64,000 nucleotides of DNA from an uncultured Cellulomonas sp. (GTDB lineage: Bacteria; Actinomycetota; Actinomycetes; Actinomycetales; Cellulomonadaceae), in contig NZ_CANLTL010000013.1 in the NCBI RefSeq assembly GCF_947494015.1, forward strand, positions 62,001 to 126,000. Reading direction: 5' to 3'. How positions within the stretch are numbered: position 1 is the first letter of the stretch; each line of letters starts with the position of its first letter. The notes under the pieces were generated by a model. That model saw only the letters and a list, made by a program, of their open reading frames with translations, had not been told where the DNA came from and searched no databases. Below are positions 31,179 through 34,306 of this stretch, in pieces. The translations under genes were made by a program, and so were the position numbers.

Positions 31179-32213
31179 TCACCCCTCGCCCAGCACGCGC
31201 GCCACCTCGGGCAGCGCTCGCGGGTCCGTCTGCACGAGCAGCGTCGTCACCGCCGTGGAGCGCCAGGCCGGCAGCTGCGCCCGGACGACGTCGGCCGGCC
31301 CGACCAGGGCGATCTCCTGCACGAGCTCGAGCGGCACCGCGGCGGCCGCCTCGGCCCGGCGACCGGCGAGGTAGTGCGCCTGCACCTCGTCGCACACGTC
31401 CCCGTAGCCGAGCCGGTCCAGCGCGTCGCGGTGGAAGTTGGCTCCCGGTGCCCCCATCCCGCCCGCGTACAGCGCGACGAACGGCCGCACGACGTCGGCG
31501 GCCCGCTCGACGTCGTCGCCGAGCACGACGGGGACGGTGGCGGTGACCTCGAAGCCCTCGGCCGGCGAGCGCGCGCCGTCCCGCCGGGCGAAGCCGTCGG
31601 CGAGGTGCTCGCGGAAGGTGGCGTCCATCCGCGGGGAGTAGAACAGCGGCAGCCAGCCGTCGGCGATCTCGGCGGCGAGGGCGATGTTGCGCGGTCCCTG
31701 CGCGGCGAGGTGGATCGGCAGGTCGGCCCGCAGCGGGTGCACGGTCGAGCGCAGCGGCTTGCCCAGCCCCGCACCACCGGGGTACGGCAGCCGGTAGAAC
31801 TCCCCGTCCGCGGTCACCGGCGCCTCGCGCCGCAGTACGTCGCGCACGACTGCGACGTACTCCCGGGTCCGGGCCAGCGGGCGCGGGTACGGCTGGCCGT
31901 ACCAGCCCTCCACCACCTGCGGGCCGGACGCGCCCAGGCCGAGCGTGAACCGCCCGCCCGAGAGGTGGTCGAGGGTGAGCGCGGCCATCGCCGCCGCCGT
32001 CGGGGTGCGCGCGGCCATCTGCGCGATCGCGGTGCCCAGCCGGACGCGCCGGGTGCGCGCCCCCCACCACGCGAGCGGGGTGAGGGCGTCCGAGCCGTAC
32101 GCCTCGGCGGTCCACACCGAGTCGAACCCGAGATCGTCCGCCGCCACGACCGCCTCGGCGGCACCCGGGGGCGGTCCGGCCGACCAGTAGCCGGTGTGGT
32201 ACCCCAGGCGCAT
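31179..32213 (-). CDS. LLM-class F420-dependent oxidoreductase
   Basis: A 344-residue member of the luciferase-like monooxygenase superfamily, F420-type. The TIM barrel begins MRLGYHTGYW. FDSVWTAEAYGSDALTPLAWWGART is the conserved strand-helix, followed by LGTAIAQMAARTP and LDHLSGGRFTLGLGASGPQVVEGWYGQPY. These features match F420-dependent enzymes similar to mycobacterial Rv3520c-like proteins. GGAGG precedes the ATG. It lies just downstream of cysE on the same strand with 44 bases between, so it may be co-transcribed with cysK-cysE. The substrate is unknown. Confidence 0.85.
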   Translation of the reverse strand: MRLGYHTGYWSAGPPPGAAEAVVAADDLGFDSVWTAEAYGSDALTPLAWWGARTRRVRLGTAIAQMAARTPTAAAMAALTLDHLSGGRFTLGLGASGPQVVEGWYGQPYPRPLARTREYVAVVRDVLRREAPVTADGEFYRLPYPGGAGLGKPLRSTVHPLRADLPIHLAAQGPRNIALAAEIADGWLPLFYSPRMDATFREHLADGFARRDGARSPAEGFEVTATVPVVLGDDVERAADVVRPFVALYAGGMGAPGANFHRDALDRLGYGDVCDEVQAHYLAGRRAEAAAAVPLELVQEIALVGPADVVRAQLPAWRSTAVTTLLVQTDPRALPEVARVLGEG

Positions 32214-32257
32214 CGCTGCCTCCGGTGTCGATGGGTCCGGCGGCCGCTGCCCGGACC

Positions 32258-32842
32258 TCAGATGTACATCGCCGGGTCGTCGACGTCCGCGGCATCGGGC
32301 AGCGTACGGGGCTGGGTGCGGACCCGGGCGGGCACGCCGACCGCGACCGACCCCGGCGGGACGTCGGCGATCACGACGGCGTTCGCGCCGATCTGCGCGC
32401 CGTCGCCGATCCACACCGGCCCCAGCACCTTCGCCCCCGCCCCCACCACGACGCCGTCGCCCAGGCTGGGGTGCCGTTTCCCGCGCCGCATCGCCTTGCC
32501 GCCCAGCGTCGCGCCGTGGAAGAGCACGACGTCGTCGCCGACCTCGGCGGTCTCGCCGATGACCACGCCCATGCCGTGGTCGATGAACAGGCGTCGGCCG
32601 ATGCGCGCGCCGGGGTGGATCTCGATCCCGGTGGCCGCCCGCACCGCCTGCGAGAGCAGTCGGGCGGGCAGCCGCAGACCCGGCTCGCGCCACATCCGGT
32701 GCGCGACTCGGTAGCCCCAGACGGCGTGCACCCCGGGGTAGCCGAGGGCCACCTCGGCGAGCGACCGGGCGGCGGGGTCGCGCCGGACCGCCGCGTCCAG
32801 GTCCTCGCGCAGCACACCGAGGAAGCGGCGCAGTCGTGTCAT
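32258..32842 (-). CDS. cysE: Serine O-acetyltransferase
   Basis: Makes O-acetylserine from serine and acetyl-CoA, the first committed step to cysteine. At 194 residues it is the short (EpsC-like) form. The N-terminal helical part ([33 protein letters not shown]) precedes the left-handed beta-helix built of hexapeptide repeats ([31 protein letters not shown]), with catalytic Asp-His in IDHGMG. It lies 34 bases downstream of cysK, so the two form the classic pair. The ATG at 32842 has no clear ribosome binding site, but a six-codon ORF ends on it (see 32839-32859). The last residues, DDPAMYI, resemble the CysK-binding C-terminal Ile. Confidence 0.92.
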
Positions 32843-33812: not shown

Positions 33813-33949
33813 GGGTCCTCTTCTCGGATGCGGAGCCGCCGGGCGGCCGGTGAGCTGGGGGTGGAACGTCGGGGCGCGGGCCGGGTGTTCCCGGGAGCCG
33901 GGAGCCGGGAGCCGGGGCCGTCGGGCTCCTGCGACCGGCGGTGCTCGTG

Positions 33950-33989
33950 CGCACGGCCTGCACGGGGGCGCGGTCCCCGCGGCCGTGCG
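33950..33989 (-). terminator. Second inverted repeat in the cysK leader
   Basis: A perfect 9-bp repeat CGCACGGCC/GGCCGTGCG (33950-33958 and 33981-33989) encloses a 22-base GC-rich loop. It lies between the leader-peptide hairpin and cysK and could act as the terminator or anti-structure of an attenuator. Confidence 0.5.
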
Positions 33990-34024
33990 GGTCTGCGGTG
34001 GGCGGGCGCGGTGGCGGGTGGGGC

Positions 34025-34071
34025 GAGCGCTGACCGTCGTCGCGCGGGCGGCGAGGCAGGGGTCAGCGCTC
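34025..34071 (-). promoter_or_regulatory. Attenuator-type hairpin abutting the cysK leader peptide stop codon
   Basis: A perfect 11-bp stem (arms 34025-34035 and 34061-34071, 25-base loop). On the transcript the first arm begins with the last base of the leader peptide's TAG stop codon. A ribosome stopping at the last Cys codons or at the stop would cover or free this arm, which is the geometry expected of translation-coupled attenuation. Confidence 0.6.
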
Positions 34072-34142
34072 TACCGACACCGACAGCCGTGCAGCGCCCC
34101 GGTGTGCGCGGCGAGGGACCGACCCCGGTGGCAGCGGTGCAC
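34071..34142 (-). CDS. Cysteine-rich leader peptide of the cysK-cysE operon
   Basis: A 23-codon ORF with a GTG start preceded by GAGAAGGGA. It begins VHRCHRGRSL and ends LHGCRCR, with Cys at positions 4, 20 and 22, so two Cys codons lie within the last four. The stop codon merges with an 11-bp hairpin. It is 258 bases upstream of cysK, with a TACGGT promoter element about 40 bases before it. The final bases TGTCGGTAG are identical to those of the leader ORF ending at 57758. A role as cysteine-sensing leader peptide is inferred from composition, position and structure. Confidence 0.72.
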   Translation of the reverse strand: MHRCHRGRSLAAHTGALHGCRCR

Positions 34143-34306
34143 GGTGGTCCCTTCTCGCTCGTCGGTGGCGTGGCTGCGGTGACCGTATCGGCTGGGCTCG
34201 GCGGGTGCCAAGACGGCGACCGCCGCCCACCGGCGGGTCTCGGCGCACACGATCGCCGCGCCTGCGGCAGGCTGGTGCCAGCACGCCCGACGACGAAAGG
34301 CCCACC

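Follow-up and report, generated by a model that had tools for sequence, protein, structure and literature searches.

A cysteine-ended leader ORF and a stop-anchored hairpin form a probable ribosome-mediated attenuator upstream of cysK-cysE in an uncultured Cellulomonas sp. and many of its relatives

Introduction

The classical attenuators of the trp, his, and ilv operons alternate between an antiterminator and a terminator, and in E. coli tnaC an arrest peptide mediates the response to an excess of tryptophan. For the cysteine genes of actinobacteria, the parts of the 2005 survey by Seliverstov et al. drawn on here (PMC1262725) describe Cys-ended leader peptides that precede cbs in Bifidobacterium longum and the cys operon in Mycobacterium and Propionibacterium acnes, report no conserved terminator-like hairpins in the alignable Mycobacterium regions, and suggest the involvement of Rho. 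Mycobacterial polycysteine short ORFs, which are leaderless, are described as acting by translation attenuation in papers that cite Canestrari et al. (2020). The uORFC-8-2 motif before cysS in Rhodobacterales, as presented in the portion of its description used here (PMC8632094), has a first stem that contains the Cys codons, a U-run after it, and UGC as the dominant codon.

Here we describe an element upstream of cysK-cysE that combines a short, Cys-ended leader ORF with a hairpin beginning on the leader stop codon itself. No earlier report of it was found in the literature on leaders and attenuation, in a search that left most subscription journals outside its reach. The DNA analyzed, referred to as the window, is a stretch of 64,000 nt from an uncultured Cellulomonas sp.; its relevant features are collected in Table 1.

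Table 1. Coordinates of the leader, hairpin, candidate promoters, and genes in the window
Feature	Position	Strand	Basis
Candidate leader promoter, TTGGCA (34211-34206), 18-nt spacer, TACGGT (34187-34182)	34182..34211	-	Pattern match
Leader ribosome-binding region, GAGCGAGAAGGGACCACC	34143..34160	-	Sequence; RBS-type motif common in leaders
Leader ORF, GTG start, 23 codons, peptide MHRCHRGRSLAAHTGALHGCRCR, stop TAG	34071..34142	-	Sequence re-read
TGT CGG: Cys codon at -2, conserved as TGT, followed by a last sense codon with initial C	34074..34079	-	
Hairpin 5' arm, GAGCGCTGACC, first base = G of TAG	34061..34071	-	Pairing, covariation
Hairpin 3' arm, GGTCAGCGCTC	34025..34035	-	Pairing, covariation
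Untranslated region separating hairpin from cysK, rich in C and poor in T, candidate Rho-loading region	33828..34024	-	53% C, 30% G, 6% T
Candidate SigH/SigR-type promoter, GGAAC-N19-GTT, between hairpin and cysK	33865..33891	-	Consensus match
cysK, cysteine synthase A, 311 aa	32877..33812	-	NCBIfam TIGR01139, 443.7 bits (cut-off 350.95)
cysE, serine O-acetyltransferase, 194 aa	32258..32842	-	NCBIfam TIGR01172, 230.5 bits (cut-off 210.65)

Results and Discussion

The leader ORF and its terminal Cys codon

A sequence-only reading of the window had singled out a 23-codon ORF with Cys codons at positions 20 and 22 and a TAG end, together with a perfect 11-bp stem running from the last base of that TAG. 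Both were recovered when the window was re-read (Table 1), with codon 4 as an additional Cys codon and with a loop of 25 nt in the hairpin. The peptide ends in ...HGCRCR*, AGAAGGGA is a possible ribosome-binding site of the leader ORF, and the -10 match of the candidate promoter places the putative transcription start about 30 nt upstream of the ORF. The downstream products, CysK and CysE, contain no cysteine residues at all, a composition that would suit enzymes needed when cysteine is short.

Conservation was assessed in 84 cysK upstream regions, 5 of them from genomes of the window's genus and 79 from the best 80 records of a named genome collection; L012, a duplicate of L006, was dropped before the counts on 42 loci given below. 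A mechanical scan for ORFs of 8 to 60 codons with at least two Cys codons among the last eight was passed by 43 ORFs among the 84 listed loci, and all 43 have Cys at codon -2 (codon 22 in the window), which the scan does not require. On the opposite strand of the same loci 15 ORFs passed, none of them with Cys at -2, and dinucleotide shuffles gave 5.9 passing ORFs, 1.7 of them with Cys at -2. One Cys-ended ORF, 593 nt upstream in L053, was judged to be a chance occurrence and discounted, leaving 42 leader loci. In 41 of these 42 listed loci codon -2 is TGT, and in all 42 the last sense codon has an initial C. TGT is locally rare in the window, with TGT:TGC at 6:100 in 31 ORFs, and stands at 32:204 in 192 ORFs of 80 listed named loci, the background ORFs for both ratios having been picked by codon-position G+C and a few of them certainly spurious and others doubtful (for example, 31374-32714, which overlaps cysE). 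In every one of the 50 aligned rows, the first base of TGT lies 8 nt from the first base of the stem. Leader peptide sequences otherwise vary among loci; the window ends in C-R-C-R*, and contiguous Cys codons are not general, although some relatives have CC or CCC runs. Across loci only codon -2 is always Cys, and it is this codon, rather than a Cys cluster as such, that matters most.

One of GGAG, GAGG, AGGA, or AAGG lies ahead of an in-frame start codon in 40 of the 42 listed leaders, a count made without a chance control. A generic sigma-70 scan found nothing for the leader promoter, and 30 of 37 listed loci carry the pattern TTGNNN-N16-19-TANNNT ahead of the leader start (0.1 in mononucleotide shuffles), its -10 ending 28 to 81 nt before the start codon; five of the 42 loci are left out of this count, L009 and L084, which have no ribosome-binding sequence, and L033, L039, and L070.

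Among the 41 loci without a scanned leader, 28 were inspected. The Promicromonospora locus L035 has a leader ending in GCL* before TAGAGCGTCC, missed by the scan because of the two-Cys rule, and in L031 (Micropruina) an ORF ending in TRCR* with a TGA stop lies 305 nt upstream of cysK and is possibly a distant leader without a stem. Beyond these two, no comparable ORF was seen in the 28 inspected loci. A common motif upstream of cysK, overlapping a SigH-type -35, was seen in the leaderless loci L042, L052, and L055 (TTGGAATANNCATAAC) and L062 (TTGGAACATTCATAAG), and it possibly marks a different regulator that replaces the attenuator there.

A hairpin anchored on the leader stop codon

In 34 of the 42 listed leader loci a helix of at least 7 bp opens on the last base of the stop codon (2.5 in shuffles), and in 26 of the 42 that helix reaches at least 9 bp (0.3 in shuffles). 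Across the 14 offsets tested, helices of at least 9 bp were found only at +2 and +3, the latter being the same helix one base in. The other 8 of the 42 listed loci have fewer than seven contiguous pairs at the stop, and five of these 8, four from Cellulosimicrobium and one from Oerskovia, have a Cys-ended leader without a convincing stem. In L130, a minus-strand locus from a member of the order, the leader TAG reads CAG and the frame continues into the 5' arm of a still recognizable hairpin.

The stem covaries. In 34 aligned loci (alignment A1, which leaves out 8 of the 42, L013, L014, L015, L022, L023, L038, L046, and L061), changes on both sides were seen in 6 of the 11 pairs. With remote family and order members included (50 rows; alignment A2 leaves out 4 of 20 new rows, L135, L136, L148, and L160), the number rises to 7 of 11, compared with 5.2 in shuffles, 23 of 500 of which reach it, and 55 cells are changed on both sides, compared with 20.3 in shuffles, none of 500 of which reach it. 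Sliding the partner by 1 to 3 columns lowers pairing in the 50 rows from 87% to at most 42%, percentages that lean toward structure because A1 row ends were chosen by pairing and 16 A2 rows came from model matches. Pair 27-97 takes each of the four Watson-Crick forms (UA, CG, GC, and AU), and the cysK protein tree requires a minimum of seven changes in it. The first, third, and fourth pairs of the stem are invariant in the 50 rows, and its sequence might have another role as well.

Folding of the whole 359-nt leader gave a z of 0.76, with 75 of 100 shuffles at least as stable, and is uninformative at this G+C content; the typed exact repeat was found in 0 of 100 window shuffles, which means little alone. 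When 60 nt of leader are included, the stem has a mean probability of 0.88 and falls below 0.5 in 3 of 34 loci, being outcompeted in L004 (0.01) and L016 (0.00) and weakened in L029 (0.39). The covariance models of Rfam release 15 gave no credible match in the leader region. A second stem had also been claimed, between the first and cysK. It exists in the window as a 9-bp minus-strand helix, CGCACGGCC/GGCCGTGCG (33989-33981 with 33958-33950), but the predicted folds of four congeners contain no counterpart, and it was rejected as a conserved terminator.

It is the comparative evidence across loci, not the folding of a single leader, that settles the reality of the element: the leader ORF and stop-anchored stem before cysK-cysE are confirmed, far above chance. 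Relatives retain the frame, the Cys codon at its end, and the stem on the stop codon, the last with compensatory changes, which is the pattern that the sequence-only reading had proposed to look for. Its interpretation is thus partly supported: the core of frame, codon, and stem stands, and a deciding role of ribosome position is the best reading, but a counterpart of the second stem in congeners and a Cys cluster as such find no support, and a cysteine response through the hairpin would be its predicted consequence.

Distribution of the element

Genome-wide, there is a single instance of the TAG-anchored pattern and a single strong match to the element model (E = 3.5e-12; runner-up, E = 0.29). 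The covariance model matches 159 of 200 family genomes at E <= 0.01, with cysK adjacency checked for part of them, and an earlier model matched 71 of 297 order genomes, a figure that includes false positives. When 33 order-level matches were examined, 21 lay before cysK and 12 did not, the latter all with E of 2e-5 or worse. Of a further 24 rows, 19 of them new, the 20 that belong to the order each precede cysK, and the remaining four, weak matches at class level, have no visible cysK, one of them lying at a contig end. Taken together, the 57 rows examined individually, including 5 repeats and excluding loci L144, L159, L161, and L182, place the element before cysK in 41 cases, the other 16 being weak matches.

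At the level of the class, 7 of 394 genomes match at E <= 0.01, and the only two strong matches are both in the window's family. The other five, one within the order and four outside it, have E of 8e-4 to 7e-3, with no cysK seen alongside; in one of the loci, L184, the contig ends 137 nt downstream of the match, and the TGT-N3-TAG core is also lacking. Presence of the element outside the order was rejected, there being no credible match beyond it among the 394 class genomes. Two genomes (L178/L179 and L180/L181) each have two copies of the element plus cysK, reflecting either an assembly overlap or a real duplication.

A proposed ribosome-mediated switch

The element is probably a cysteine-responsive, ribosome-mediated attenuator of cysK-cysE. 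The best reading is that ribosome position would decide whether the first stem forms, because the last Cys codon lies at a fixed distance from the base of the stem and no conserved competing structure is present. RNA polymerase would start upstream of the leader ORF, and a ribosome would follow it through the ORF. When Cys-tRNA is ample, the ribosome would pass the UGU at -2, terminate at UAG, and depart, whereupon the stem starting from the G of UAG would fold and transcription would end before cysK, either at the hairpin or through the action of Rho on the untranslated, C-rich RNA that follows. Under a shortage of Cys-tRNA, a ribosome halted with UGU -2 in the A site would have its leading edge over the first bases of the 5' arm (GAGCG), and the stem would stay open, allowing polymerase to reach cysK-cysE. 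Judged from ribosome footprints in general, about five bases at the start of the stem would be hidden when the -2 codon occupies the A site, and loss of these five basal bases is predicted to cost about 12 kcal/mol (mean, -33.1 to -21.0 over 34 loci).

Pairing of the leader ORF with either arm, as an antiterminator would require, and pairing of the cysK start with either arm, as sequestration would require, were both rejected, neither showing an excess over shuffles. Because neither was found, ribosome occupancy is the simplest switch, and it would operate without a separate antiterminator. A ribosome at UAG would also cover the stem, so that the model needs either fast release or a well-timed polymerase. 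Translation is suggested by the RBS-type sequences and by conservation of the leader; we infer stalling and occlusion, and we take the direction of the cysteine response from biosynthetic logic.

Termination and alternative explanations

How transcription would be ended bears on the strongest alternative. In the 34 loci, the 8 nt after the stem contain at most three T residues, and a terminator scan of the window found no U-tract either. Six low-G+C relatives were examined (locus G+C, 0.52 to 0.59): L172 carries GTTTCCCT, and a canonical U-tract is present only in L152, a family member. In L152 the stop-anchored stem is rewritten as GAGCATTGA/TCAATGCTC and is followed by TTTTTCTT, giving a textbook intrinsic terminator.

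The general absence of U-tracts would also fit control of the tnaC type, in which the hairpin is secondary, a ribosome stalled at the end of the leader shields a C-rich Rho-loading site, and cysteine sufficiency frees that site so that Rho stops transcription before cysK. C-rich RNA such as that behind the hairpin (Table 1) would suit Rho, and the 90 nt before the cysK ribosome-binding region average 49% C and 27% G in the 42 listed leader loci and 33% and 26%, respectively, in 41 nonleader loci, a comparison confounded by the difference in overall G+C between the two sets. The five loci with a leader but no stem point the same way, as does the proposal of Rho for actinobacterial cys leaders in the parts of the 2005 survey drawn on here (PMC1262725). 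Such control would leave the exact register of codon and stem, as well as the covariation of the stem, unexplained, and we regard it as possible but rather unlikely.

Translational attenuation, in which stalling would remodel the mRNA and free the cysK ribosome-binding site in the manner of the mycobacterial polycysteine leaders, has the precedent of cysteine genes in mycobacteria, as described in papers that cite the 2020 account. Complementarity between the arms and the cysK start region is lacking: the longest helix of that start with the 3' arm and tail averages 4.3 compared with 5.0 in shuffles, reaching at least 8 bp in none of 34 loci, and stems that begin at the stop end about 43 to 212 nt before cysK, a distance that is not conserved. 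We therefore consider it improbable. The strict anchoring of the stem to the stop codon could also mean that the stop positions it to block ribosomes or to stabilize the mRNA, with the Cys codons left over from an unrelated old leader; on this view the link to cysK would have no explanation, nor would the conservation of a Cys codon or the use of its rare synonym, and we find it very hard to credit. A chance encounter of an ORF with an inverted repeat in upstream DNA of high G+C content, for which nothing speaks except that such DNA folds readily, is refuted by the conservation, covariation, and position statistics and has a negligible probability.

A candidate SigH-type promoter behind the hairpin

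Between the hairpin and cysK lies a candidate SigH/SigR-type promoter, matching consensus sequences from M. tuberculosis and C. glutamicum: GGAAYR-N17-18-GTT for M. tuberculosis SigH in the part of the source used (PMC4803200) and GGAAC-cGTT for C. glutamicum SigH/SigE, likewise from part of the source (PMC10012870). GGAAC-N19-GTT occurs downstream of the hairpin in all five genus members and in 11 of the 42 listed leader loci (0.07 in shuffles); the SigH-type motif also turns up in 12 of 41 nonleader loci and in 5 of 42 regions of equal length ahead of the leader. If the promoter is used, thiol stress could bypass the attenuator that we propose.

Relation to known systems

As in amino acid attenuators generally, a short ORF with codons for the end product, probably translated to judge from its sequence, lies upstream of the biosynthetic gene. 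The likeness to the trp, his, and ilv attenuators is that translation of a leader ORF would sense one aminoacyl-tRNA; in contrast to them, mutually exclusive antiterminator and U-tract terminator structures were not found here, L152 being the exception with respect to the U-tract. With tnaC the element may share a ribosome at the leader end that shields RNA from Rho, whereas its peptides vary and the operon downstream is biosynthetic.

Among the cysteine leaders, those of the 2005 survey, as far as the parts drawn on here describe them (PMC1262725), likewise place Cys codons close to the end of a short ORF ahead of actinobacterial cysteine genes; the present element differs in its gene, cysK, and in having a covarying hairpin that begins on the stop codon. 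The mycobacterial polycysteine ORFs, to go by papers that cite the 2020 account, are also cysteine-sensing short ORFs upstream of cysteine genes, but they are leaderless and their Cys codons are contiguous, whereas the ORF here is preceded by promoter-like and RBS-type sequences, holds one TGT at a fixed position, and supplies the first base of the hairpin from its stop codon. They are best treated as an analogy and not as members of the same family. The uORFC-8-2 motif, in the portion of its description used here (PMC8632094), resembles the cysK element in having Cys codons in a short ORF and a presumed terminator stem; here, however, UGU is dominant, the Cys codon lies outside the stem, and there is no U-run.

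A tentative extension of these comparisons is that the element could represent a distinct class of attenuator, in which one wobble-read UGU at a fixed distance from a stop-anchored stem would be the whole sensor, occupancy would replace the antiterminator, termination would be free of a U-tract, and a SigH-type promoter would provide a bypass under thiol stress.

Conclusions

The element supplies what the 2005 survey, in the parts drawn on here (PMC1262725), lacked, namely, a hairpin that is conserved, covaries, and keeps a constant register with the proposed sensing codon. With a locally rare Cys codon nearly invariant at this position, a synonymous change could directly test whether starvation sensing is tuned at the codon level, and the element offers a simple system for asking how transcription ends without U-tracts in high-G+C actinobacteria.
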